Below are positions 13,705-28,931 of a stretch of 32,599 nucleotides of DNA, piece by piece. The notes under the pieces were generated by a model. That model worked only from the letters and a program-made list of their open reading frames with translations, had not been told where the DNA came from and ran no database searches. Made by a program: the position numbers and the translations under genes. The stretch's first letter is position 1. Every line of letters starts with the position of its first letter. Source of the stretch: Eubacteriales bacterium (GTDB taxonomy: Bacteria; Bacillota; Clostridia; Lachnospirales; Lachnospiraceae); assembly GCA_030536755.1 (NCBI GenBank), contig JAUNPJ010000046.1:1-32599 (forward strand), read 5' to 3'.

Positions 13705-14250
13705 ATGGGACATTTTTATTTTATCAGACACGGACAGACCATATGGAATGTAGAAAATAAGATTTGCGGCGCAACGGACATTGCTCTGACAGAGCTTGGA
13801 CATCAGCAGGCCATCGAGACAGGAAAGAAAATTCTTAAGGAGGGAATCCAGGCGGATGAGATTTTGTATTCTCCGTTGGTGCGTGCGGCGGATACCGCAA
13901 AACACATTTCTGAAATTACAGGCATTCCGGCAAGGGAGGAACCTCGTCTGATCGAACAGAACTTCGGAAAATATGAGTCTACACCGCGTGATGGAGCAGA
14001 ATTTCAGGAGGCAAAAAAGGAATGTGCGATTCGCTACGAGGGAGGAGAATCCATGCTGCATCTGGCACAGAGAATTTACAATCTGCTGGATGATATCAAG
14101 GCAGAATCTGATCATAAAACCTACATACTGGTGGCGCACAATGGAATTTCGAGGGTGGTGCACTCCTATTTCCATGAAATGACGAATGCACAATACGCAT
14201 CATTTGGAGTCAAAAACTGCGCTGTCGTGCGATACGATTTTGAAGAATAA
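13705..14250 (+). CDS. Histidine phosphatase (phosphoglycerate mutase-like) family protein
   Basis: A 181-residue member of the histidine phosphatase superfamily. FIRHGQT contains the nucleophile His9 and Arg8. Further pocket residues are Arg60 in YSPLVRAADTA, a Glu in RLIEQNFGKYE and the second catalytic His145 in VAHNG. Such proteins hydrolyse phosphate esters of small metabolites; the substrate is not deducible. I choose the ATG at 13705, 9 nt after AGGA, over the ATG at 13699, which is only 3 nt away. The stop codon directly abuts the stop of the convergent TetR gene, with no terminator between, so the two transcripts must overlap. Confidence 0.87.
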   Translation: MGHFYFIRHGQTIWNVENKICGATDIALTELGHQQAIETGKKILKEGIQADEILYSPLVRAADTAKHISEITGIPAREEPRLIEQNFGKYESTPRDGAEFQEAKKECAIRYEGGESMLHLAQRIYNLLDDIKAESDHKTYILVAHNGISRVVHSYFHEMTNAQYASFGVKNCAVVRYDFEE

Positions 14251-14829
14251 TCACTCTCCTTTGGGGGGCAAAGAAAAAATATTTTGTATTCCATGGTAAG
14301 CGATTTCAACGGGAATATTCCCAAGCTCATCGAGTGAGCAGGAAGTCTCTCCTTTCAGCCAACTCTGGTAAACAGCGATAATTCCGGAAGCAAAAAACTG
14401 AGTGTACAATTCTAGATGTTCTTTTGGTATTTTTGCAAGATGGGAGTAAGTGTCCACGACCGTGCGCACAATGATTTCCTGCACCTGTTCCCAGAAGAAA
14501 TTGTAATTGGTGTGGCGGGCAATGTGTCTGTAGAAGTCCATATGCTCGCCAAGGATATGGTTGAGTGTACGGAAAATGCATCCGACATCATAAGGGTGCT
14601 GAAAAAAGTCATTTTCTTCCAGTGTTTGCAAAAGTTCCCGAATCAGGGCTTCTGTAAACTCTGAGATGATATCATCCACGGAACGATAATGAAGATAAAA
14701 GGTTTTTCGGTCGATATTGGCATGGCGCGCAATCTCGGCGATGGATATTTTCGTTGTATTCTTTTCCATCAGAAGAGAAAGATATGCGTTTTGAATGGCT
14801 GATTTTGTTTTTACGATTCGTTTATCCAT
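14251..14829 (-). CDS. TetR-family transcriptional regulator (divergent from degV)
   Basis: About 192 residues. The N-terminal HTH reads ISIAEIARHANIDRKTFYLHYRSVDDI, the standard TetR DNA-binding region. The C-terminal half is helical and would bind a ligand; WLKGETSCSLDEL near the end matches a subgroup of TetR C-terminal domains seen in Firmicutes. The start is ambiguous. A GTG at 14844 adds five residues (MGFNK), while the ATG at 14829 has GGGG 9 nt upstream, and I favour the ATG. It diverges from a DegV gene, and a palindrome GGCAATTGCC (14887-14896) at that gene's -35 region is a possible binding site. Confidence 0.86.
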   Translation of the reverse strand: MDKRIVKTKSAIQNAYLSLLMEKNTTKISIAEIARHANIDRKTFYLHYRSVDDIISEFTEALIRELLQTLEENDFFQHPYDVGCIFRTLNHILGEHMDFYRHIARHTNYNFFWEQVQEIIVRTVVDTYSHLAKIPKEHLELYTQFFASGIIAVYQSWLKGETSCSLDELGNIPVEIAYHGIQNIFSLPPKGE

Positions 14830-14881
14830 TTTATTAAACCCCACTTTTTGAGAATCTGTAGATTACCCCCCATTTAGCTGC

Positions 14882-14921
14882 GAAGTGGCAATTGCCCGGG
14901 GGACTTCTTTTCCAGTATAAT
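14882..14921 (+). promoter_or_regulatory. degV promoter with overlapping palindrome
   Basis: A -35 TTGCCC (14892-14897) and a perfect -10 TATAAT (14916-14921) are spaced 18 bp apart. The -35 is embedded in the palindrome GGCAATTGCC (14887-14896). Outer GAAGT (14882-14886) and ACTTC (14903-14907) form a further inverted repeat. The divergent TetR protein is the obvious candidate to bind here, but this is inference. Confidence 0.55.
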
Positions 14922-15015
14922 ACCCATGTGTGGAAAAATCAATAACTGCTGAATAACAGGAGTGATGATTGGCACACAGAATACACAGGGATGATAAACC
15001 CGGAAAGAGGGAGTT

Positions 15016-15879
15016 ATGAAATATTTGATTTTTATGGACGTTTCAGGAGATATCAACATTGAGGCAGCAGGTGCACAGGAACTGAAGTTTATTCCGATGG
15101 AATATTCTCTGGGTGATGAAATGCGTACCTGTGAGGGCATGGAAAATTCGGATCTATTAAAAAAGTTTTATGATGGACAGAGAAATGGTGATCTGACAAA
15201 GACTTCTCAGATTTCTCCGTATCTGTATGAGCAGTACCTGGAGCCATATTTTGAGCAGGGATATTCGGTGCTGTATTTGTGTTTATCCAGCGGGCTTTCT
15301 TCTACTTTCCAGTCTGCATGCATGGCACGTACAGCGCTGAAAGAAAAGTACCCACAGCAGGATTTTTATCCGGTGGACAGCCTGTCGGCAACCGGAGGCA
15401 TGGGCGTGCTGGCAGAGCGTGCACTCAGAAACAAAAACAACGGTATGGATCTTGAGGCAAACTACGAAGATCTCTGTCAGGCAGTCAAACACATCAAACA
15501 CTGGTTCATGGTACAGGATCTGATGTATCTGAAACGCGGAGGCAGAATCAGTGCAGCGACAGCCGTAGTAGGTTCCGCTTTGAATGTGAAGCCTATTTTG
15601 AAAATCGATGAGAAGGGAAAGCTTGAAACATTTGCGAAAAAACGCGGCAACAAGGCAGCCGCAAAAGCACTTCTGGAGAATTTTGCTTCGTCTTACGATG
15701 AAAAGTCTGGGGATGTGATCTATATCGTTGATGCAGATGCACAGGATATGGGCGATTATCTGGAGGCAGAGGTGAAGAAGCTTTATCCCGAAGCAGTTGT
15801 CCGTCGAAGCATGCTGTCTCCGATCATCGGGGCACATACAGGACCGGGTATGGCGGCAATCTGCCATATGGGAAAATAA
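15016..15879 (+). CDS. DegV-family fatty-acid-binding protein
   Basis: A 287-residue DegV/FakB-type protein. The family binds a fatty acid in a deep pocket and presents it to the kinase FakA for phosphorylation and entry into phospholipid synthesis. Features are LCLSSGLSSTFQSA (the Ser-rich ligand-head loop), DSLSATGGMG, and LKRGGRISAATAVVGSALNVKPIL, a very typical stretch. The C-terminus has SPIIGAHTGPG. Length fits the family. No fakA gene is adjacent. The gene has its own promoter, with a GAGGGAG ribosome site before the ATG, and diverges from a TetR regulator that may sense lipids. Confidence 0.9.
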   Translation: MKYLIFMDVSGDINIEAAGAQELKFIPMEYSLGDEMRTCEGMENSDLLKKFYDGQRNGDLTKTSQISPYLYEQYLEPYFEQGYSVLYLCLSSGLSSTFQSACMARTALKEKYPQQDFYPVDSLSATGGMGVLAERALRNKNNGMDLEANYEDLCQAVKHIKHWFMVQDLMYLKRGGRISAATAVVGSALNVKPILKIDEKGKLETFAKKRGNKAAAKALLENFASSYDEKSGDVIYIVDADAQDMGDYLEAEVKKLYPEAVVRRSMLSPIIGAHTGPGMAAICHMGK

Positions 15880-15925
15880 GACGGCTGTTGCTATGTAAGA
15901 TTATAACAAATTGTGTTGTCAATTA

Positions 15926-15967
15926 TTGACCACTTAGTCTATTTACAATATAATGGACTAAGTGGTC
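15926..15967 (+). promoter_or_regulatory. Autoregulatory TetR operator and promoter
   Basis: A perfect 12-bp inverted repeat GACCACTTAGTC (15928-15939) / GACTAAGTGGTC (15956-15967) surrounds a near-perfect promoter. The -35 TTGACC (15926-15931) sits in the left arm, the -10 TATAAT (15949-15954) lies in the 16-bp gap after a 17-bp spacer, and the right arm covers the transcription start. Binding by the TetR protein encoded 20 bases downstream would shut off both it and the antiporter gene. Confidence 0.85.
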
Positions 15968-15986
15968 TATTATTATGGAGGAAAAC

Positions 15987-16592
15987 ATGAAAAAAGAAGA
16001 GAAAACAGAATTGACAAAGAAAAAAATACTCTCTGCCGCAATGGAGGAATTTGGAACGAATGGATACCGGGGAGCATCGCTGAATGCGATCTGTCAGGCA
16101 GGAATTCCCAAGGGGCTGTTGTATCACAATTTTAAAAATAAGGATGCGCTGTATCTTTCCTGTGTGGAATGGTGTTTTCAGGCATTGACAGAGTGTTTGA
16201 GAGAAGCGCAGATTGGAAATGATCTGGAAAAATATATGCAGGTGCGAATGAAATTTTTCAGAGAGCATAAGATGGAAGCCCACATATTTTTTGACGCTGT
16301 CTTGCAGCCTCCCGAGAAACTGTATTCTGAAATCTGTATGCTGAAAAAAGAATTTGATGAATTGAACAGGGAATTATATAGAGAGATGATGAGTTCGCTG
16401 CAGCTGAGAGAGGATGTTTCTTATGAAGATGCGATGCGGTATTTTACAATGCTGCAGGAAATGTTTAATCATTCGTTTAGCTGCCAAAACTATGGAAATA
16501 TGTCATTATCCGATAAAATAGAAATTCATGAGAGAGACTTACCGAAAATATTGGATTTGATGCTGTACGGGATTGCAAGGAGGGATGATTGA
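15987..16592 (+). CDS. TetR-family regulator of the antiporter operon
   Basis: A 201-residue repressor. The N-terminal HTH reads KILSAAMEEFGTNGYRGASLNAICQAGIPKGLLYHNFKNKD, split here by eye into helix 1 (to about residue 20) and the recognition helices. The remaining helices form a ligand and dimer domain with no recognisable ligand class. The ATG at 15987 lies 7 nt after TGGAGG; an upstream ATG would overlap that site. The gene begins just after the symmetric operator at 15926-15967, so it is almost surely autoregulated. Its stop overlaps the antiporter start by one base (TGATG), so the two are translated together. Confidence 0.9.
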   Translation: MKKEEKTELTKKKILSAAMEEFGTNGYRGASLNAICQAGIPKGLLYHNFKNKDALYLSCVEWCFQALTECLREAQIGNDLEKYMQVRMKFFREHKMEAHIFFDAVLQPPEKLYSEICMLKKEFDELNRELYREMMSSLQLREDVSYEDAMRYFTMLQEMFNHSFSCQNYGNMSLSDKIEIHERDLPKILDLMLYGIARRDD

Positions 16593-17812
16593 TGCCGGGG
16601 CTTTTGATTCGTTGGGGAATAGTTGTTGTCATTGCTTTTTTGATTGGAAAAGGAGTTTCGAAATTAAGACTTCCGGCCATACTGGGCTGGTTGATTGCTG
16701 GAATGGTGTTGGGACCTTATGCACTGGGGATACTGCCGGATGAATTGGTGAATGCCGGATGGTATCAGAATATCATTCATGTTCTGGAATGTGCAGTAGG
16801 ATTTATGATTGGAACAGAACTTGTGTGGAAAAAAATCAAAAATTACGGAAAAGCTCTGATTCTGACTACGTTGGCACAGTCCCTGGGAACTTTTCTGCTG
16901 GTATCTGGAGTGTTTTCTGTGATCTTTGTGCTGAGAGACATTCCTGTTTATCTGGCGTTTCTGTTCGGAGGAATTGCACTTGCTACGGCACCGGCACCTG
17001 CGTTGTCTATTGTTCAGGAATTTAAGACGCAGGGGGATGTAACAAAAACATTGATTCCCATGGCTGCTCTTGATGATATGGTGGGAGTGGCAGTCTTTTT
17101 TACGACAGTAGCTGTAGTTTCGCGCCAGATATCGGGAAATGGAATGCCGTTGTATATGATTCCCGTGATGATCGTATTGCCGATTTTGATTGGCATTCTT
17201 ACAGGAGTTCCTGCCGGAAGATTATTGAAAAAAGACAGGACAACGCCGCAGACGATTATGATCTTGATGGGAATGATTACAGTAACTGCATGCATCGGGT
17301 ATTTTTGTAATATGTATTTGATGCCGTCTCCTCTGTTAAACTATATGCTGATGGGAATGGCTTTTTCGGCAACCTTCTCCAATATGGTTACGGAAGAACG
17401 TCTGCAGAGAATTGTTGTTGATTTCAATCCTCTGCTTGGTATTTTTATGATTGTTGTTATATTAAATCTGGGCGCACCGCTTGATTATCATGCGATCCTG
17501 GGTGCTGGCGTGTATACTGTTGTTTATATCGTTGTCCGTGCTTTCGGAAAATATTTTGGAGCACGGCTGGGAGCAAAGGCTACACATATGCCGATAACCG
17601 TACAGAAATATCTTGGTTTTACCCTTTTGCCGCATTCCGGAGTATCTTTGGTATTTACCGGTATAGCAGTTTCTGCCTTAATGGGAACTGCACCGGAATG
17701 TGCAGAGATTATTCAGGGAACAATTGCTGCAGCGGCTGTGATCAATGAAATCATTGCTGTAATTGTTGCAAAGAAGGGATTTGAGTGGGCTGGGGAAATG
17801 CCTGTGCAATAA
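16592..17812 (+). CDS. CPA2-family cation:proton antiporter
   Basis: A 406-residue membrane protein with about 12 hydrophobic segments, of the monovalent cation:proton antiporter-2 type. Key features are LRLPAILGWLIAGMVLGP near the N-terminus, the unwound TAPAP helix (about 132-136) and the paired acidic residues ALDDMVG (Asp161-Asp162), which bind the transported ion. The double Asp suggests electrogenic exchange. There is no C-terminal RCK/TrkA domain, so it belongs to the short form. The ATG at 16592 has AAGGAGG about 9 nt upstream. The linked TetR repressor implies induction by a small molecule, perhaps a toxic compound that perturbs pH or ions. Substrate ion unknown. Confidence 0.86.
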   Translation: MPGLLIRWGIVVVIAFLIGKGVSKLRLPAILGWLIAGMVLGPYALGILPDELVNAGWYQNIIHVLECAVGFMIGTELVWKKIKNYGKALILTTLAQSLGTFLLVSGVFSVIFVLRDIPVYLAFLFGGIALATAPAPALSIVQEFKTQGDVTKTLIPMAALDDMVGVAVFFTTVAVVSRQISGNGMPLYMIPVMIVLPILIGILTGVPAGRLLKKDRTTPQTIMILMGMITVTACIGYFCNMYLMPSPLLNYMLMGMAFSATFSNMVTEERLQRIVVDFNPLLGIFMIVVILNLGAPLDYHAILGAGVYTVVYIVVRAFGKYFGARLGAKATHMPITVQKYLGFTLLPHSGVSLVFTGIAVSALMGTAPECAEIIQGTIAAAAVINEIIAVIVAKKGFEWAGEMPVQ

Positions 17813-17919
17813 ATTTCCAGTGTATAGGTAACAAAAAACCATTATAAATTGAAAACTCCCTGCTCTTATGTTAAAGTAAAAGTGGAAAAACTATAATACA
17901 TGTAGAGGAAAATAAAACT

Positions 17920-19116
17920 ATGGAAAGAAGAGTAGGTACTATTTCAAGAGGAATTCGCTGTCCGATTATTCGAGAGGGGGATAATCTCGAAGAGATCATT
18001 GTGGACAGTGTATTAGGTGCAGCAGAGAGCGAAGGCTTTGCGATTCGTGACCGCGATGTGATTGCGGCAACAGAGTCGATTGTGGCAAGAGCACAGGGAA
18101 ATTATGCGACGATCGACGCGATTGCAAAAGATGTAAAAGAAAAGCTTGGCGGAGAGACGATTGGAGTGATCTTTCCGATTTTATCCAGAAACCGTTTCTC
18201 TATTTGCCTGAAAGGAATTGCAAGAGGAGCGAAAAAGATTGTTCTGATGCTGAGCTATCCAAGTGACGAAGTCGGCAATGAGCTGGTGTCTCTGGATCAG
18301 CTGGATGAGGCCGGAATCAATCCATACAGCGATGTGCTGGATGAAAAACGTTATCGTGAATTATTTGGAGAAAATAAACATCCATTCACAGGGGTCGATT
18401 ACGTTTCTTATTATACGGAAGTCATTGAAAGTCAGGGAGCAGAAGTGGAGATTATTTTCGCAAATAATCCAAGAGAAATTTTAAAATACACGAAAAAGGT
18501 ATTGACCTGTGACATTCATACTCGTGTGAGAACAAAACGGATTTTGAAACAAAGCGGTGCGGAAATCGTGCTTGGAATGGACGATATCCTGACAAGCTCT
18601 GTTGACGGAAGCGGCTGCAATGAGCGTTTTGGACTTCTTGGCTCCAATAAATCTACAGAGGAATCTGTCAAACTGTTCCCGCGGGACTGCAGTGCACTTG
18701 TAGAAGGTGTCCAGAAAAAGATTCTGGAGAAGACGGGAAAACATGTGGAAGTTATGGTATATGGTGACGGCGCATTCAAAGATCCGGTAGGAAAAATATG
18801 GGAGCTTGCGGATCCATGTGTTTCTGTTGCACATACACCGGGCCTGGAAGGCACACCAAATGAATTAAAGTTAAAATATCTTGCAGATAATGATTTCAAA
18901 GAATTGTCTGGAGAAAAGCTGAAAGAAGCAATTTCCAAAAGAATTCTGGAGAAAAAGGAGAATCTGGTAGGCGATATGGTTTCTCAGGGAACAACACCGC
19001 GCCGCCTTACAGACTTGATTGGTTCGCTGTGCGATTTGACGAGTGGTTCCGGAGACAAAGGAACACCGGTTATTTTGGTACAGGGATATTTTGATAATTA
19101 TACATCAGAGAAATAA
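17920..19116 (+). CDS. Coenzyme F420-0:L-glutamate ligase (CofE)-like protein
   Basis: A 398-residue protein. Homologs in Clostridia are annotated as F420-0 gamma-glutamyl ligases, enzymes that add glutamate to the F420 tail using GTP. Visible features are RDRDVIAATESIVARAQGN near residue 45, FPILSRNRF, and YGDGAFKDPVGKIWELADP. It is much longer than archaeal CofE (about 250 residues). Most Firmicutes make no F420, so the true acceptor is probably another carboxylate or peptide. The start at 17920 has AGAGGAAAA upstream and a TATAAT at 17892-17897. It forms a single-gene unit closed by the terminator at 19132. The family call is fair; the biochemical role is unknown. Confidence 0.78.
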   Translation: MERRVGTISRGIRCPIIREGDNLEEIIVDSVLGAAESEGFAIRDRDVIAATESIVARAQGNYATIDAIAKDVKEKLGGETIGVIFPILSRNRFSICLKGIARGAKKIVLMLSYPSDEVGNELVSLDQLDEAGINPYSDVLDEKRYRELFGENKHPFTGVDYVSYYTEVIESQGAEVEIIFANNPREILKYTKKVLTCDIHTRVRTKRILKQSGAEIVLGMDDILTSSVDGSGCNERFGLLGSNKSTEESVKLFPRDCSALVEGVQKKILEKTGKHVEVMVYGDGAFKDPVGKIWELADPCVSVAHTPGLEGTPNELKLKYLADNDFKELSGEKLKEAISKRILEKKENLVGDMVSQGTTPRRLTDLIGSLCDLTSGSGDKGTPVILVQGYFDNYTSEK

Positions 19117-21118: not shown

Positions 21119-21138
21119 CAGAAAGTAATAAAAGCAAA

Positions 21139-21172
21139 GGGAGATTGTGGCTTGTATAAGTCACAATCTCCC
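21139..21172 (-). terminator. Hairpin between flavodoxin and malic enzyme
   Basis: A 15-bp stem with one G-U pair (21139-21153 and 21158-21172) has a 4-nt loop. On the minus strand it is followed by TTTGCTTTTATT, so it best serves the malic enzyme operon. On the plus strand the tail is A-rich. Confidence 0.72.
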
Positions 21173-21189
21173 AAATACAAAAAATGAGA

Positions 21190-22362
21190 CTATATTCTTG
21201 CTACTTTACTTTTTACTGCTGCTTTTGCTACTGCTTTTGCTACTGCATCTTTTACTCGCGGGTCAAATGCTGCCGGTAAAATATAGTCTGCATTTAACTC
21301 GCTATCACTTACAAGACCGGCAATTGCATAGGCGGCGGCTATTTTCATTTCGTCATTGATATCCGATGCTCGGACATCCAGAGCTCCTCGGAAAATCCCT
21401 GGAAATGCCAGAACATTATTTACCTGATTTGGGAAATCGCTTCTTCCCGTAGATATAACAGCAGCACCTCCTGCTTTTGCCTCATCCGGAAAGATTTCTG
21501 GTGTTGGGTTTGCACATGCAAAAATAATTGCATCTTTTGCCATTGTGGATACCATTTTTTTTGTCAATGTTCCCGGAGCTGAGACGCCAATAAATACATC
21601 TGCACCTTTGATTACTTCTTCTAAGCTGCCTTTTTCACAGTTTTGATTCGTAATTTCAGCCATTTCTTTTTTAATAGGATTCAGGTCTTTTCTTCCTTTA
21701 TAAATAGCACCAGTTCGATCAGTCATAATGACATTTTTAAGTCCCATACTCATCAAAAGCTTAATGATTGCAATACCAGCTGCACCGGCTCCGCTAGTGA
21801 CAATTTTCACTTCTGTAATTTCTTTTTTTACCAGTTTCAATGCATTGATCAGTCCGGCAAGTGTAATCACTGCTGTTCCATGTTGGTCATCATGAAAAAC
21901 AGGGATATCACAGCGTTTCTTTAACTCTTTTTCAATTTCAAAACATCGAGGTGCACTGATGTCCTCCAAATTCACGCCTCCAAAACTTCCCGCAAGAAGT
22001 GATACTGTTTCTACAATCGTATTTACATCCTTGCTGCGCACACAAAGCGGAATTGCATCTACATCTCCGAATTCTTTAAAAAGGACACATTTGCCTTCCA
22101 TGACTGGCATTCCCGCTTCTGGTCCAATATCGCCAAGTCCCAGAACTGCTGTACCATCCGTCACAACAGCAACCGTGTTCCAGCGTCTTGTCAATTCATA
22201 GCTTTTCGTAATATCTTTTTGAATCTCCAAACAAGGCTGTGCTACTCCGGGAGTATATGCTAGAGAGAGGGCTTCTTTGTTATCAACTGCAGCCCGAGCA
22301 GTCACCTCAAGTTTTCCTTTCCATTCATAATGCTTTTTTAATGATTCTTTTGCATAGTCCAT
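21190..22362 (-). CDS. NAD(P)-dependent malic enzyme, decarboxylating
   Basis: A 390-residue bacterial-type malic enzyme that converts malate to pyruvate and CO2 with reduction of NAD(P). Motifs include SLAYTPGVAQPCLEI, TDGTAVLGLGDIGPEAGMPVMEGK, the metal-binding FHDDQHGTAVI, and the nucleotide-binding SGAGAAGIAI. Length fits the short bacterial class without a phosphotransacetylase domain. I choose the ATG at 22362, which has GGAG 9 nt upstream; an ATG two codons earlier is also possible. It is the last gene of a minus-strand operon after a YfcC-type transporter and a carboxylesterase, so malate or a related C4 acid is probably the end product of that pathway. Confidence 0.93.
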   Translation of the reverse strand: MDYAKESLKKHYEWKGKLEVTARAAVDNKEALSLAYTPGVAQPCLEIQKDITKSYELTRRWNTVAVVTDGTAVLGLGDIGPEAGMPVMEGKCVLFKEFGDVDAIPLCVRSKDVNTIVETVSLLAGSFGGVNLEDISAPRCFEIEKELKKRCDIPVFHDDQHGTAVITLAGLINALKLVKKEITEVKIVTSGAGAAGIAIIKLLMSMGLKNVIMTDRTGAIYKGRKDLNPIKKEMAEITNQNCEKGSLEEVIKGADVFIGVSAPGTLTKKMVSTMAKDAIIFACANPTPEIFPDEAKAGGAAVISTGRSDFPNQVNNVLAFPGIFRGALDVRASDINDEMKIAAAYAIAGLVSDSELNADYILPAAFDPRVKDAVAKAVAKAAVKSKVARI

Positions 22363-22515
22363 CTTCATTTTCTCCATCTTTATCGTGTATTTCATATACC
22401 ATTCTTGTTATGGATTTAAAATTGCAGACCAATTTTTCTCTGAAATTTCTACATCCTGTATATTGTCTCTATGACCAAACTCTATTTTTATCTTTTTATT
22501 TTTCACTGCACTTTA

Positions 22516-23916
22516 TCAGATTCCTGTCCATCCAATACCTTGCAGAACAAAAATACATACTGCTGAAAATGCGACAAGTACCAGTGCATATGGTACGGCA
22601 TAACGAAGCCACTTGGAATAACGGGTTTCTGAAAGAATCAGACCTGTAGCAAGTACAGAGGAAACAGGTGTTAGGAAGTTAGTCAGGCCATCTCCTAACT
22701 GATAGCAGGTACAAAGAATCTGACGTGTAATTCCAAGAATATCAGCAACTGGCGTGAACAATGGCATCAAAATCGGAACCTTTGCAGGACCAGAAGGCAT
22801 CATCAGGTTAAACAACGTTGTAAATAAGAACATTCCGATTGCGGAAAAAGAGGATCCTAGCTGTTGGATAATTAAAAGAGCACTGTGTGCAATGGTATTA
22901 ATCACTTGTCCATCTGCAAGTATAACGCTGATCAGTTTAGAAAAACCAATCAAAAGACATACAGGACCCATCTGTGCAGCACCTGCGCAGAAGCGTTTTG
23001 CCCAGTCATTTGGAGTATATCGAAAAACAAAACCAAGGATGATAGCAGATACAAAACCTAAGGCTATTAAGTAGTCAAATCCCCAACCATATTTGGATGA
23101 ACCATATGCATAAATTACAAAGGGCAGAATCATCATAACTACTGCAACTACAGAAGATGGTTTTAAGGCTGTCTCGTTTCCAATATTATTTTTTTCTTCT
23201 TCAGATAAAGTAAGAATTTCTCCGTCTATGCTTCGTGAAGGATCGCGTGATATACGAAGGGCATAACGCGTATTATAAAAAGCACAGAAAGCGGTGAATA
23301 TAATCCATATAAAGATACGGACAGAAAGGCCAGAAACTGCCGGAATGCCAGCCATTTCCTGACACATCAGAATCATCAGTACCGTTGGTCCGATTGCCTG
23401 TCCGGTGATGTATGGCAGGTAAAAAATTGCCATACCTGAAAGTCTATCCAGATTAGTTCTTCTTGCAAGCAGCATACCGCAGGCAACAAAGGTAATCATG
23501 GCGTCATTTCCGGCAAGACCACCAAGAATAGACATCAGAACGGTGATACAGGGGATTAAAACTTTTAAGCTTTTATCCTGCAGACGAAAAATAGAGAAGT
23601 CAACAATATTTTCCACGGAGCCGGAAGAAATCATAACGCTTACCATACCGCCGAGGATAAATAAAAGGGCGTAAGTTGTTCCCATTGAAGCTATGGAAGA
23701 AGTAAGTTTGATAACTGCTGCCAACGGGGAAACAGGGGTGTTTTGTACATAGCTGAAAGAATCTGCAATAACATATCCATTGTCATCAAACTGATATGTA
23801 CCTGCAGGAATGATATAAGTTAAAAGACAACTAAAAAGTGCTAAAAGAACTAGCAGAACCATAACGTGCGGAAAAGCAAGTTTGGAATGTTGTTTTTTTG
23901 ATTTTGTGTTGTTCAT
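22516..23916 (-). CDS. YfcC-family membrane transporter
   Basis: A 466-residue integral membrane protein with about 12 hydrophobic segments. FPHVMVLLVLLALFSCLLTYIIPAG at the N-terminus and ILGGLAGNDAMITFVACG are typical of the YfcC / basic-amino-acid antiporter (ArcD-like) and C4-dicarboxylate-like superfamily. Repeated re-entrant-like motifs follow (MMPSGPAKVPILMPLFTP and QLGDGLTNFLTPVS). The ATG at 23916 has GAGAGGAGG upstream. It sits between a carboxylesterase and malic enzyme, so an organic acid such as malate is the likely substrate, although the family name is non-specific. Confidence 0.84.
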   Translation of the reverse strand: MNNTKSKKQHSKLAFPHVMVLLVLLALFSCLLTYIIPAGTYQFDDNGYVIADSFSYVQNTPVSPLAAVIKLTSSIASMGTTYALLFILGGMVSVMISSGSVENIVDFSIFRLQDKSLKVLIPCITVLMSILGGLAGNDAMITFVACGMLLARRTNLDRLSGMAIFYLPYITGQAIGPTVLMILMCQEMAGIPAVSGLSVRIFIWIIFTAFCAFYNTRYALRISRDPSRSIDGEILTLSEEEKNNIGNETALKPSSVVAVVMMILPFVIYAYGSSKYGWGFDYLIALGFVSAIILGFVFRYTPNDWAKRFCAGAAQMGPVCLLIGFSKLISVILADGQVINTIAHSALLIIQQLGSSFSAIGMFLFTTLFNLMMPSGPAKVPILMPLFTPVADILGITRQILCTCYQLGDGLTNFLTPVSSVLATGLILSETRYSKWLRYAVPYALVLVAFSAVCIFVLQGIGWTGI

Positions 23917-23952
23917 AAGCAACCTCCTCTCAAAATGTAAAATTCTATAAAT

Positions 23953-25305
23953 TTATTCTTCTGAAATTGGCAAATTAGTAATATTATCAATGCATTTGAC
24001 AAATTTATCCGAAGTGTTGTAACGTGGCCAGACAGCAGAATCAAATTCTTCAAAACGGAAAAATGTTCCCCAGAGAGACTGCATAGTCTGTTGAAGAGCT
24101 AACATTTCTTCTCTGCCTGCACCTTTCAGCATAGGAGCATCCCAGGTGTCTAGATTACCAAACAGGAAAGGAAGCTCCAGACAATGGCATGAGTCATAGT
24201 CGGATTCCGGAGCTTTCCATGCAAAGCGATATTTCCATACATGGCAGCCACCTTCGGAAGCAGCGTTAACAAATTTTTTTCCTGGCTGATCATAACGTTG
24301 TTCCTGAATATTTTTTGCAAGTGTCAGGGACTCTTCGTCTTTTCCTGGAATGAAAGCGCGCATTTCATTGACTGTAAATCCCATAATAATTCGGGTTTTA
24401 CGCCGGATGGCTTCTTTTTTTAATGCTTCGACAGTTTGATCTGGTGTATGCCATTGTGTTTTTACTGGTTTGAAAATCATCATCTGATGTTTAGTTCGTA
24501 ATTCATTAGGTATAGAATCAGCGGCCAATAAGATTTCATCGGCAGTTTTGGCTTGAAGCTCTTCCAGAATATCAGTCGGGTTTTGAGAATGAATGTTGAG
24601 TTCTTTAAGCATAGCATTTCCGACTTCAAAAGCATCTTCCATGGTATGGTGACCTCGGCCAAGGGAGGCACTTTCCATAATCACCTGATGAAACAGTCCT
24701 TCCGTATCTGGTCTGGACAGCAGATGTGCAATAGCATTACCACCTGCAGATTGGCCAAAAAGCGTAACGCGGTTGGGATCCCCTCCAAAATTGGAGATAT
24801 TTTCCTGGATCCAGTGAAGAGCCATAATCTGATCTTCAATGTTGAGTGTTTCTTCGCATACGCCCGGATAACAGAAAAAGCCAAAAGGTCCTAAACGATA
24901 ATTCAGATTTACAACAACAATCTGTTCGGAACGAGCCAGAGAAGCACCGTCATACCAGTCAAGATCTCCAGCTCCGTAACAATTGGCACCTCCATGAAAC
25001 CAAACTGCTACCGGCAGATGTCCATTTAATGAAGGTGTACTGACTGCAAGTGTCAGACAGTCTTCGCTGCAAGTGCCAAGTGTAGGTCCCATAGGGATAT
25101 CTAAATCGGATGGACCCTGTGGAGCAATGTTACCTCGAAAAGTTCCGTCGTATTCGCCATCCCATGGTTCCGTCGGCTGCGGCATGCGGAATCTGAGAGG
25201 TCCAACAGGCGGTTTTGCATAAGGGATGCGATGAAACTGAAAAATTCCATGATTGATGCTTCCTTTAATCTTTCCATCTTTGGTTGAAGCAAAACAATTC
25301 TTCAT
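23953..25305 (-). CDS. Type B carboxylesterase
   Basis: A 450-residue alpha/beta hydrolase of the carboxylesterase/lipase (type B) family. The oxyanion-hole HGG is at 104-106, the nucleophile Ser186 in LFGQSAGGNA, the acid probably Glu314 in FTVNE and the His374 in CHCLELPF. FRIPYAKPPVGPLRF-like sequence near residue 25 is also diagnostic. No signal peptide is seen, so it acts inside the cell. It is the first gene of an operon with a YfcC transporter and malic enzyme, so it may cleave an imported ester or a carboxyl ester of a hydroxy acid. That is inference. An AAGGAGG site lies upstream of the ATG. Confidence 0.9.
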   Translation of the reverse strand: MKNCFASTKDGKIKGSINHGIFQFHRIPYAKPPVGPLRFRMPQPTEPWDGEYDGTFRGNIAPQGPSDLDIPMGPTLGTCSEDCLTLAVSTPSLNGHLPVAVWFHGGANCYGAGDLDWYDGASLARSEQIVVVNLNYRLGPFGFFCYPGVCEETLNIEDQIMALHWIQENISNFGGDPNRVTLFGQSAGGNAIAHLLSRPDTEGLFHQVIMESASLGRGHHTMEDAFEVGNAMLKELNIHSQNPTDILEELQAKTADEILLAADSIPNELRTKHQMMIFKPVKTQWHTPDQTVEALKKEAIRRKTRIIMGFTVNEMRAFIPGKDEESLTLAKNIQEQRYDQPGKKFVNAASEGGCHVWKYRFAWKAPESDYDSCHCLELPFLFGNLDTWDAPMLKGAGREEMLALQQTMQSLWGTFFRFEEFDSAVWPRYNTSDKFVKCIDNITNLPISEE

Positions 25306-25349
25306 ATAATTCCTCCTTGCTAATTGTTTGAATGTTTATTTGTTCGCTC

Positions 25350-25397
25350 TTTCGCTCTTTATGGCGAAATTATAACAAATAAGTTTAAACATGTCAA
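25350..25397 (-). promoter_or_regulatory. Promoter and putative GntR operator of the esterase operon
   Basis: On the minus strand, a perfect -35 TTGACA (TTGAC at 25397-25393) and a perfect -10 TATAAT (25374-25369) have a 17-bp spacer. Just downstream, TTTCGC (25350-25355) and GCGAAA (25364-25369) form an inverted repeat overlapping the -10 and start site, and a second TTCGCTC is repeated next to it. The divergent GntR protein is the likely ligand-controlled repressor. Confidence 0.75.
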
Positions 25398-25509
25398 TGA
25401 ATCAAGAAACGCAATACTATACAAAAAATAAAAATATGATTTGTGAAACTTGACAGTCCGGAGAAAAAACAATAAGCTAATGATAGGAAAGAAGAAAGAG
25501 GTAAAATGC

Positions 25510-26232
25510 ATGGGCGAAGTGGTAAAAATTAAGAAAATGTCTGCGGCAGATCTTGTTTTTGAACAGTTAAAACAATTTATATTAGATCATACATGGGAAG
25601 TGGGAAAGAAAATTCCTTCAGAGATTGAACTTTCGAAGGAACTTGGAGTTAATAGATTAACGACAAGGATTGCTTTACAGCGGTTAAATGCCTTAGGGCT
25701 TTTGGATATTCGGGTAGGTGATGGAACTTACGTAAGAGAATTTGATATGAATGCTCATATTGCAGAATTGTCAGATTTTTATGTAAATGAAGAGCTCGTA
25801 AATAAAGTAGGAGAATTTCGTTCTGGTTTAATGAGGATGTGTTTTCCTCTGGCAGTGGAACGTTATACTGAGGAAGAACTGGAAAATTTTTATAAGTTGT
25901 GTCAGCAGCTCCGAAATGAGTGGATAGAATTTCATAAGCAAGATAATGCGGAAAGCGCGAAAGAATTTTTTATGGAAACAATAGAAACTGTAGCAAATCT
26001 GAACAGATTGTTGTGTGCTATGGCACATAATGAACTGATTAATTATGCATTTAATCTGTCAATAGAGCCTATAAAACGCCATATGGAATATAACGCCTCA
26101 AAGCGTACGCAGGATATTGATGATGATCAGATTAATATTTGGGTTAAGCAGTGGGAAAAAATATACGAAGCTTTGAAAAATAAAGATGCTGATGAGTGCC
26201 AGCGCCTGATGGCTAGTATTATTCAAGATTAA
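25510..26232 (+). CDS. GntR/FadR-family transcriptional regulator
   Basis: A 240-residue regulator. The winged helix is at about 10-80 (LEFT part LVFEQLKQFILDHTWEVGKKIP, then SEIELSKELGVNRLTTRIALQRL and LDIRVGDGTYVRE). The all-helical C-terminal domain matches the FCD/FadR type, which binds organic acids, often through a metal; here the metal His positions are not clear. I take the ATG at 25510, with AGAGG 8 nt upstream, over a distal ATG at 25480. It diverges from the esterase-transporter-malic enzyme operon and very probably controls it. Confidence 0.87.
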   Translation: MGEVVKIKKMSAADLVFEQLKQFILDHTWEVGKKIPSEIELSKELGVNRLTTRIALQRLNALGLLDIRVGDGTYVREFDMNAHIAELSDFYVNEELVNKVGEFRSGLMRMCFPLAVERYTEEELENFYKLCQQLRNEWIEFHKQDNAESAKEFFMETIETVANLNRLLCAMAHNELINYAFNLSIEPIKRHMEYNASKRTQDIDDDQINIWVKQWEKIYEALKNKDADECQRLMASIIQD

Positions 26233-26366
26233 TTTATGGTATAAAGTGCAATTTGCAAAAAAAAAGTAAGATGGTCAGAATATAATGGCATGCAGATCCT
26301 TTAGAATAAAGAATGAAAGTCTTCTTTTGTGCAAAAGATTTTAAAGTATTCCAAGAGTAATTAGAT

Positions 26367-26395
26367 TTGCGAATATAATAGAAAAATGATAAAAT
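26367..26395 (+). promoter_or_regulatory. Promoter of the helicase-nuclease-peptidase gene
   Basis: A -35 TTGCGA (26367-26372) and a -10 TAAAAT (26390-26395) are spaced 17 bp apart. No LexA-type SOS box is evident. An inverted repeat TCTTTT-GTGC-AAAAGA (26323-26338) lies upstream and may be a regulatory site or a weak end signal for the GntR gene. The 230-bp gap is otherwise AT-rich and empty. Confidence 0.6.
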
Positions 26396-26462
26396 TGAAA
26401 AAACAAAGAGAATTTTGCAGCATATAAAAACTGTATATGGGGAAAACAAAAGAGGATAAAGT

Positions 26463-28916
26463 ATGCAATTAAATATGGAACAAAAAAGATTGATTCGAAG
26501 TACCACGATGGGACAGGCGATGATAAAGGGTGTGGCAGGATCAGGCAAAACGACTGTGGCAGTACACAGAATTTCGTTTCTTTTAAATCAATATTGCCTT
26601 GAGCCAGAAGATTCTATTTTGATGGTGACTTTCAATAAAAGTTTAATCAATTATATTGATTATATTTACGGGCAAATGGAAGAGGATGAGCAATATAGTT
26701 TATTTAAGGACAAAGATAAAAATCAATATGTGACAATCACAAATATTGATAAATTGTTATATGAGTATTTTCGTGAATATTGCAGAGAAAATAATAAAAA
26801 ACTCACATTTGTAAAGCCACAGCAGGAAAATATAATTTTACAAAAATGTATTTATAAACTTCAAAAATCCTTTGAAGATGTGAAAATTCTTGATATAAAA
26901 AATCTTGGCTTTCTAAAAAAAGAAATTTCATGGATGAAGGCATGTAATTTTGTTGATTTAGAAGTTTATCAAAATGTAGACCGTTTGGGAAGAACAGGTA
27001 GTAGAAACAATAGCGAAGGTCCTCAAAAATTAATGAAAAACAGCAGGACTCGTCAGGCTATTTATGAATTGATGGTTCTTTATACAAAGGCATTATTAGT
27101 GGAGGATTTATGTGATTTTCAGGATTGTGGTTTGTATGCATTAAAGTATTTGAAAAATCATAAAATTCAAAAATACACACATATTATTATCGATGAAAGT
27201 CAGGATTTATCGAAAGTGCAATTGGAATGTCTGATGCAGTTATATGAGTTTGATAAGGATTATAGCAGTATCCTGTTTGTTGCAGATACGGCACAGAGTA
27301 TTTATGATACTTCCTGGTTGATCAGAGGAAGAAGTTTTACCAGTATTGGACTGGATATGACAGGAAAAAGTAATTCTCTGACTAAAAATTATCGTACGAC
27401 AACACAGATTGCAGAGGCTGCATATAGTTTGATAGAAAAAGATCAGGATATTATTACGGATGATAATTTTGTGAAGCCTTCTTTGATTGATAAACAGGGA
27501 AATTATCCTGTCTTTCAGTGCTTTCTAACATTGGAAGAAGAAATTGAAGGAATTGAAAAATTATTGCAGCAGCGTTTGTTAAAGCGTTATAAAAGAAAAG
27601 AAATTGCAATTGTGGCAAGGACAAGAAAAATCCTTGAACAGTTTCAGTTAAGATATAAAAATTCTGAAGAAATTGCGCTTTATTCCAAGCAGGATGGAAT
27701 TCATTTTAATGAAGATACAATAAAATTGCTGACTATGCATTCCATTAAGGGGCTGGAATTTAAGGTGGTCATATTGATGGGGCTTTCGGACAGAATTATT
27801 CCAAATCAGATTATGATGAAGGAAAATGACGATTCTAATTATGCGGAAACGATGGAGAGAAAATTATTATATGTTGGAATGACAAGGGCGACAGAGCGCC
27901 TTTACATGAGTTGTCATGAAATGCCCTCTCGTTTTATTTCCTGTATTAATTCAAAATTTTTGAAATTGAAGGATGATGCAAGATTTAGAAGATTAACAGA
28001 TATACCTATGCAGGATTATCTTTTTCAGGATAAAATTGTCGATTCGTATAACAAAGAAGAAAAGATTCGTCAATGGATATTGAGAGAACTTCATGAAACA
28101 TATCGTTATCCTTTGGATTTGTTAGATGTTGAATTTCGAGTACAGGTATTTTCAAAACTGGGATTTGCGGATGTTGTAGTTTATATCTATGAGAATAATA
28201 AAAAAGTACCGTACATTCTGGTAGAGGTGAAAAAATACTTATCAGGAATTGAAACTGCAAAGAAGCAATTACGCACTTATATGGTAGTAACGCCAGAAGT
28301 ATGTTATGGTGTAGTAACAGATGGAAGTCAATTGCAGATTTTAGATCGCCAGGGATGTGAAATAGACGACATTCCTGTGTTTGATAACTCGATGATGACA
28401 TCAGGAATTGTAGAATACTGTTATGTAGATTTTGATAAAGATAAAGAACATCATTTTTTCAAGGATGAAGATTATCCAGATGAGGTGATTGTGAAGGATA
28501 ACGATAATCAGACAACCTTTACAGGGGAACAAATCATTCACTGTCCTGTTTTTTCTGATATTGCAGCAGGAATACCTATTGAAATGCAAGATGGAATGAT
28601 GGACACCTATGAACTTCCTTTTGAATGGCTCAATTCACCATCCGATTGTTTTATACTTACAGTAAAGGGAGATTCTATGGTAAATGCAAAAATTCATGAT
28701 GGAGATTATGTTATTTTAAGAAAAGCAGATACTGTGGATAATGGTCAGATAGCAGCAGTGGAACTGGATGGTAATGTTACACTTAAGCGTTTTCGCAGCA
28801 TGGGAAGCTATATTTTGCTGCTTCCTGAGAATGATGGTTATGAACCGATTATGATAAATAAGGGAGAAGTACGGATTCTTGGCAAAGCGATAGGTGTTAT
28901 TAAGAGAGTAAATTAA
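26463..28916 (+). CDS. UvrD-like helicase fused to PD-(D/E)XK nuclease and S24 (LexA-type) peptidase
   Basis: An 817-residue fusion. Residues 1-500 are an SF1A helicase: Walker A GVAGSGKT (23-30), Walker B IIIDESQD (241-248), motif III ADTAQSIY (274-281), NYRTTTQI (309-316), TMHSIKGLEFKVVIL (424-438) and VGMTRATERLY (471-481). Residues about 530-640 resemble an HsdR N-terminal nuclease with Asp570 (FADVVVY) and Glu588-x-Lys590 (VEVKK). Residues about 690-817 are a LexA/UmuD-type S24 peptidase: cleavage-like site Ala702-Gly703 in DIAAGIPIE, nucleophile Ser738 (KGDSM) and Lys775 (VTLKRF), 37 residues apart as in LexA. There is no LexA-type DNA-binding domain. The gene is AT-rich, stands alone, and looks acquired. 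Self-cleavage in response to DNA damage could release or destroy the nuclease; that role is inferred. Confidence 0.88.
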   Translation: MQLNMEQKRLIRSTTMGQAMIKGVAGSGKTTVAVHRISFLLNQYCLEPEDSILMVTFNKSLINYIDYIYGQMEEDEQYSLFKDKDKNQYVTITNIDKLLYEYFREYCRENNKKLTFVKPQQENIILQKCIYKLQKSFEDVKILDIKNLGFLKKEISWMKACNFVDLEVYQNVDRLGRTGSRNNSEGPQKLMKNSRTRQAIYELMVLYTKALLVEDLCDFQDCGLYALKYLKNHKIQKYTHIIIDESQDLSKVQLECLMQLYEFDKDYSSILFVADTAQSIYDTSWLIRGRSFTSIGLDMTGKSNSLTKNYRTTTQIAEAAYSLIEKDQDIITDDNFVKPSLIDKQGNYPVFQCFLTLEEEIEGIEKLLQQRLLKRYKRKEIAIVARTRKILEQFQLRYKNSEEIALYSKQDGIHFNEDTIKLLTMHSIKGLEFKVVILMGLSDRIIPNQIMMKENDDSNYAETMERKLLYVGMTRATERLYMSCHEMPSRFISCINSKFLKLKDDARFRRLTDIPMQDYLFQDKIVDSYNKEEKIRQWILRELHETYRYPLDLLDVEFRVQVFSKLGFADVVVYIYENNKKVPYILVEVKKYLSGIETAKKQLRTYMVVTPEVCYGVVTDGSQLQILDRQGCEIDDIPVFDNSMMTSGIVEYCYVDFDKDKEHHFFKDEDYPDEVIVKDNDNQTTFTGEQIIHCPVFSDIAAGIPIEMQDGMMDTYELPFEWLNSPSDCFILTVKGDSMVNAKIHDGDYVILRKADTVDNGQIAAVELDGNVTLKRFRSMGSYILLLPENDGYEPIMINKGEVRILGKAIGVIKRVN

Positions 28917-28931
28917 AAAATATGGAAAGCA

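Follow-up and report, generated by a model that had tools for sequence, protein, structure and literature searches.

Comparison with known systems

S24 domains that cleave themselves have been described on repressors and UmuD, the type I restriction protein HsdR has a superfamily 2 (SF2) motor, and the Gabija protein GajB acts with the nuclease GajA. The gene studied here lies at positions 26463 to 28916 (+) of a 32,599-nucleotide stretch of a Lachnospiraceae genome (Eubacteriales bacterium, contig JAUNPJ010000046.1; the whole stretch is called the window). It encodes a UvrD-type helicase, an HsdR-type PD-(D/E)XK nuclease and a LexA-type S24 peptidase in one 817-residue chain, and the earlier observation of this fusion, made from the DNA sequence alone (hereafter the sequence-only reading), holds. 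Our comparisons indicate that the three-domain protein is a conserved, patchily spread family, not a single oddity. It may be, with slightly less than even confidence, a restriction-like defence enzyme turned off by RecA-read self-cleavage.

The protein differs from LexA and UmuD in lacking a LexA DNA-binding domain, in the fusion of S24 to a helicase-nuclease, and in an S24 clade of its own. It resembles HsdR in joining a motor to a nuclease of the HSDR_N kind, as well as in the proposed removal of the enzyme to spare the host (PMC4231737, available part). Unlike HsdR, it has a superfamily 1 (SF1) UvrD motor, a nuclease C-terminal to the motor, and its own protease domain. GajB and the PADLOC model C3a187 (NERD+UvrD) have a related UvrD-type helicase (E values of 7.7e-33 and 4e-38, respectively), but these matches span the helicase only, whereas nuclease and S24 stand on the same chain here. 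AddAB, AdnAB, and RecB also combine a UvrD-like motor, matched structurally, with a PD-(D/E)XK nuclease; the present protein differs in being one chain of about 800 residues, with a nuclease nearer to HsdR and type IIG enzymes and a putative S24 switch. A literature search, conducted mostly without subscription journals, returned no paper on an S24-helicase fusion, and none is described in the examined portions of PMC13192584 and PMC3765255.

Domain composition and active sites

The 817-codon open reading frame was confirmed, and its features are as follows.

26463..28916 (+), gene for the UvrD helicase - HsdR-type nuclease - S24 peptidase, 817 aa (open reading frame, Pfam; same architecture in relatives)
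26469..27305 (+), UvrD-helicase N-terminal part, residues 3-281, with Walker A at about 23-30 and DE at 244-245 (Pfam PF00580; motif residues invariant)
27678..27920 (+), UvrD C-terminal part, residues 406-486 (Pfam PF13361)
28053..28376 (+), PD-(D/E)XK nuclease HSDR_N_2, residues 531-638, with Asp570, Glu588, Lys590, Gln602, and Tyr606 (Pfam PF13588; conservation; predicted fold matching BsaXI and HsdR)
28407..28520 (+), beta-rich linker, residues 649-686 (strands present in both structure models)
28545..28892 (+), S24 (LexA-type) peptidase domain, residues 695-810 (Pfam PF00717; predicted fold)
28566..28571 (+), presumed self-cleavage site Ala702-Gly703 (conservation; pairs with LexA 84-85 by the offset of the aligned ranges)
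28674..28676 (+), Ser738, presumed nucleophile (conservation)
28785..28787 (+), Lys775, presumed general base (conservation together with Ser738)

The profile search proposed in the sequence-only reading matched all three segments, each above the curated Pfam cut-off: UvrD-helicase (3.7e-21) and UvrD_C (1.4e-24), HSDR_N_2 (7e-20), and Peptidase_S24 (1.3e-29). The S24 part also scored 117.4 bits against the NCBIfam model TIGR00498 lexA (cut-off 110.95), and PDB sequence matches included PcrA/UvrD, LexA, and UmuD'. Pfam gave no match in the protein to LexA_DNA_bind, the N-terminal domain of a LexA repressor. A role as a transcription factor was rejected, as no DNA-binding domain was matched by Pfam.

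Residue conservation was counted in 61 distinct full-length members with duplicates merged, and spacing in 58 members. Ser738 and Lys775 are both kept in 60 of the 61, Ala702-Gly703 in 59, and Asp570, Glu588, Lys590, Gln602, and Tyr606 together in 60; the exceptions are L081, without the nuclease residues and Ser, and the Ilyobacter members L006 and L069, without Ala-Gly. The distance from Ala to Ser is 36 in 51/58 members, and that from Ser to Lys is 37 in 47/58. The residues named in the sequence-only reading (the nuclease Asp, Glu, and Lys, Ala702-Gly703, Ser738, and Lys775) are thereby conserved in 59-60 of the 61 members. Loss of Ser, Lys, or Ala-Gly in homologs, which that reading had regarded as telling against it, is absent from nearly all members and confined to Ala-Gly in two Fusobacteriota clades and Ser in L081.

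The nearest solved folds to the full-chain model include UvrD, AddAB, and AdnAB. The C-terminal part was also modelled alone, since matches of the full model were mostly helicases; its predicted nuclease fold matches BsaXI and HsdR, and its predicted S24 fold is nearest to hyper-cleavable LexA and RecA-bound LexA, in agreement with the expected LexA-like fold. The motifs and fold of a UvrD/Rep SF1 helicase, the core D, ExK, and QxxxY with the fold of an HsdR-type nuclease, and the Ser-Lys dyad with a predicted LexA-like fold of peptidase S24 were thus all found, and these results support three real domains with complete active sites.

Family and distribution

Whole-protein matches, own genome included, were found in 4/61 close genomes (E <= 1e-30), and in 13/392 genomes of the order and 18/398 of the phylum (E <= 1e-50); three of these 18 (G468, G620, and G807) have pieces or broken copies only. 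A scan of named genomes, from which the best 80 of 350 loci were kept, gave 55 family members or pieces (L038-L089, L091, L092, and L117) among these 80, with taxa including Clostridium, Planococcus, Lachnospiraceae, Gracilibacillus, Carnobacterium, Fusobacteriota, Desulfosarcina, and Ca. Aminicenantes. The other 25 (L090, L093-L116) match the helicase part only, and neither HSDR_N_2 nor S24 was matched in any of the seven of these scanned. Further searches found the family in 10/98 Fusobacteriota genomes and 1/247 genomes of the Aminicenantes phylum. In a tree of S24 domains (29 members, 15 LexA, and 3 S24 from phage records), a branch with support 99/99 separates the family from the other domains, the pattern that a single ancient fusion would give.

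At L033, L070, L086, L091, and L117, the gene carries frameshifts or stops or survives as a remnant, and some of these defects may be assembly errors. Five species of one genus (G595, G620, G715, G737, and G758) carry the gene at similar positions (contig C1, 11-34 kb), the G620 copy being broken. An assembly chimera is unlikely, with flanks that match a same-genus genome and an architecture common to relatives. A phage or plasmid gene was also considered and rejected: coverage of 80% of the query is reached by no phage record and by a single plasmid record, the 962-kb Ilyobacter pILYOP01. Among viral contigs, a single-sequence search gave nothing, and an alignment search gave at least 11 weak partial helicase matches.

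Defence genes around relatives

The neighbourhood survey suggested in the sequence-only reading revealed defence-rich surroundings in relatives. The neighbours, 142 proteins (minimum 100 aa) no more than two open reading frames from the gene at 50 loci, were compared with 142 controls drawn from 18 random stretches of eight member-bearing genomes, using PADLOC at E <= 1e-25; of the 83 families that the neighbours matched, 25 were listed, and the larger ones were then scanned protein by protein. With generic mads models excluded from both sets, named defence genes made up 15/142 neighbours (13 loci; among the matches listed) and 0/142 controls (Fisher, 4e-5; by locus, 13/50 vs 0/18, 0.015). The controls matched only mads3 (2) and mads2 (1), and the comparison with mads included is 17 vs 3 (0.002). 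The neighbours comprise ZorA (L041), type IV restriction (L043, L079, L082, and L086), PDC-M26A (L044 and L050), a SIR2-like ThsA match (L046), DrmD-like (L061), DRT UG10 (L065), PsyrT with PsyrA (L068), retron XI (L073), and BnzA with BnzB (L089). Not counted among the 15 are two mads3 matches, the WYL regulator at L085, one further (fifth) type IV member that was not singly identified, and an OLD-like match only slightly over the threshold (L053), the one OLD-like neighbour found in relatives, part of whose neighbours were seen individually.

NERD-HRDC genes directly adjoin the gene in several Clostridium loci (a BLAST cluster in six loci, with domains in three; L041 12468-13892, L045 8906-9982, and L046 8918-9985) and are a possible partner. 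The Evansella copy (L073, 7860-11866) stops at about residue 638 without S24 and adjoins a retron XI reverse transcriptase-protease gene.

Proposed mechanism and direction of the switch

We infer the helicase and nuclease activities, the defence role, the RecA trigger, the cleavage, and its off direction. The protein would be a single-gene anti-phage or anti-plasmid enzyme, in which the UvrD-type motor travels on DNA, the HsdR-type nuclease cuts, and the C-terminal S24 domain serves as a post-translational sensor of RecA filaments. Filaments on the cell's own DNA would force S24 into the cleavable state, and the chain would be cut at Ala702-Gly703. The 702-residue remainder, lacking S24 and bearing a new -(I/V)AA C-terminus, would be inactivated, perhaps by Clp proteases like LexA fragments, as a built-in restriction alleviation. 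Such a cut would leave an -IAA or -VAA end in 48/64 rows. The available parts of PMC4231737 and PMC12255303 describe the helicase-nuclease HsdR as a ClpXP target in restriction alleviation, also under DNA-damage stress, and LexA-like proteins are cut at Ala-Gly, exposing degrons (PMC7101444, in part).

A Bacillus-type SOS box, the only type scored, was within one mismatch in 2/53 upstream regions, where 2.3 were expected; any damage signal would reach the enzyme via the S24 domain. The fuller proposal, a defence enzyme that senses RecA filaments through its own LexA-type domain and disables itself upon damage to the host chromosome, as in-protein restriction alleviation without an SOS promoter, is held somewhat more tentatively than the off-switch as such. 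If true, an immune enzyme is under the control of a DNA-damage signal through proteolysis and not transcription, linking the SOS signal, autoimmunity control, and restriction, and the sparing of a damaged host by restriction-like enzymes becomes addressable via point variants of one gene. The S24 domain here stands on a DNA motor-nuclease and is retained across phyla.

The direction of the switch, on which the sequence-only reading did not decide, was judged on evolutionary evidence, which leans towards off. Eight of nine full-length Fusobacteriota members lack Ala-Gly, only L176 retaining it, while Ser, Lys, and the nuclease residues are kept in all nine. The two clades without Ala-Gly but with the Ser-Lys dyad (L006, L177-L179 and L069, L180-L183) differ, one having changed to Gly-Asp and the other having a deletion; their dyad might cut at another place or in trans. 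The Gly-to-Asp change equals lexA3 G85D, and G85D LexA is non-cleavable yet RecA-binding according to the accessible part of PMC6363387. With the nuclease intact despite the loss of Ala-Gly, the cut would not be needed for activity, which fits a cut that switches the enzyme off. A LexA DNA-binding match is absent from 8/9 Fusobacteriota genomes tested, including that of L176, marginal and partial in one, and present in 17/17 others. In L081 (1180-3570, Ca. Aminicenantes), a double pseudoenzyme, the nuclease and protease active sites are gone: Asp570, Glu588, Lys590, Gln602, Tyr606, and Ser738 are missing and the ten residues preceding Ala-Gly are deleted, with the helicase motifs, Lys775, and both folds retained.

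This joint loss of protease and nuclease residues fits an on-switch equally well. S24 would then restrain the helicase-nuclease until phage attack or damage gave rise to RecA filaments, which would trigger cleavage and free an enzyme that destroys DNA, for defence or cell death. The same anatomy and defence neighbourhood suit this explanation, as does AbpAB, a defence system activated by DNA damage with RecA and LexA not needed (PMC10732053, in part). We consider it unlikely, since a cut-dependent enzyme should decay where the site is lost, and the nuclease residues are intact in 8/8 full-length Fusobacteriota members without Ala-Gly. Retention of Ser and Lys in these members would suit an S24 domain that is mainly non-cutting, either a RecA-filament tether, as the RecA binding of lexA3-type LexA would allow (PMC6363387, same part), or a dimer module pairing two nucleases, with self-cleavage secondary. 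In LexA and UmuD, S24 domains dimerise. Binding alone would not need the dyad, and the near-universal Ala-Gly (59/61) and Ser-Lys (60/61) make this option clearly less probable than the on-switch. Slightly less probable again is a damage-regulated DNA-repair enzyme of the AddAB/RecB kind: the nearest folds include UvrD, AddAB, and AdnAB, and the similar contig positions in five species of one genus are as a resident gene might have, but patchy presence, an empty site in the same-genus genome G002, broken copies, defence-gene neighbours, and SOS-box counts at expectation speak against it.

Several points also weigh against a self-cleaving defence off-switch. A pure off-switch does not explain the Fusobacteriota clades that keep Ser and Lys without Ala-Gly, and L176 retains Ala-Gly in a genome without a LexA match. 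L081 is one low-coverage draft sequence from the sole matching genome among the 247 of its phylum. The -(I/V)AA end belongs to the cleavage site anyway and gives no separate evidence of a degron, and the S24 protein IrvR cuts without RecA (PMC7101444, same part). Four of the 13 defence-bearing loci (L073, L079, L086, and L089) carry a broken or truncated copy, and the controls come from 8 genomes while the foreground comes from 50 loci. Finally, none of the neighbours scanned at the window's own locus is a defence gene; the neighbours there are metabolic, and the defence reading therefore rests on relatives.

The locus in the window

The helicase-nuclease-S24 gene is the last gene of an accessory segment.

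21133..28928 (no strand), segment of about 7.8 kb with malic enzyme, a DcuC (C4-dicarboxylate) carrier, carboxylesterase, a GntR regulator, and the helicase-nuclease-S24 gene, absent from same-genus G002 (contiguous flanks in G002; domains)

Both flanks lie side by side in G002 at about 94% identity. The difference may reflect gain here or loss there, and the patchy spread of the family favours gain. No GajA-type OLD nuclease was found among six window neighbours scanned, and no HsdM or HsdS among the window genes scanned. A second stretch of the window (14243-19087; DegV, TetR, Na/H exchanger, and F420-ligase type genes) also has no match in the G002 contig.

The sequence-only reading had called the gene solitary and AT-rich, as would suit an acquired gene for defence or repair. 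Acquisition as a defence gene agrees with the patchy presence, the segment missing in G002, and the defence-rich surroundings of relatives. "Solitary between unrelated operons" is a fair description, made more exact by the position at the end of a segment without counterpart in G002, and the AT-richness is borne out by a guanine-cytosine content of 0.332 in the gene against 0.410 in the window.
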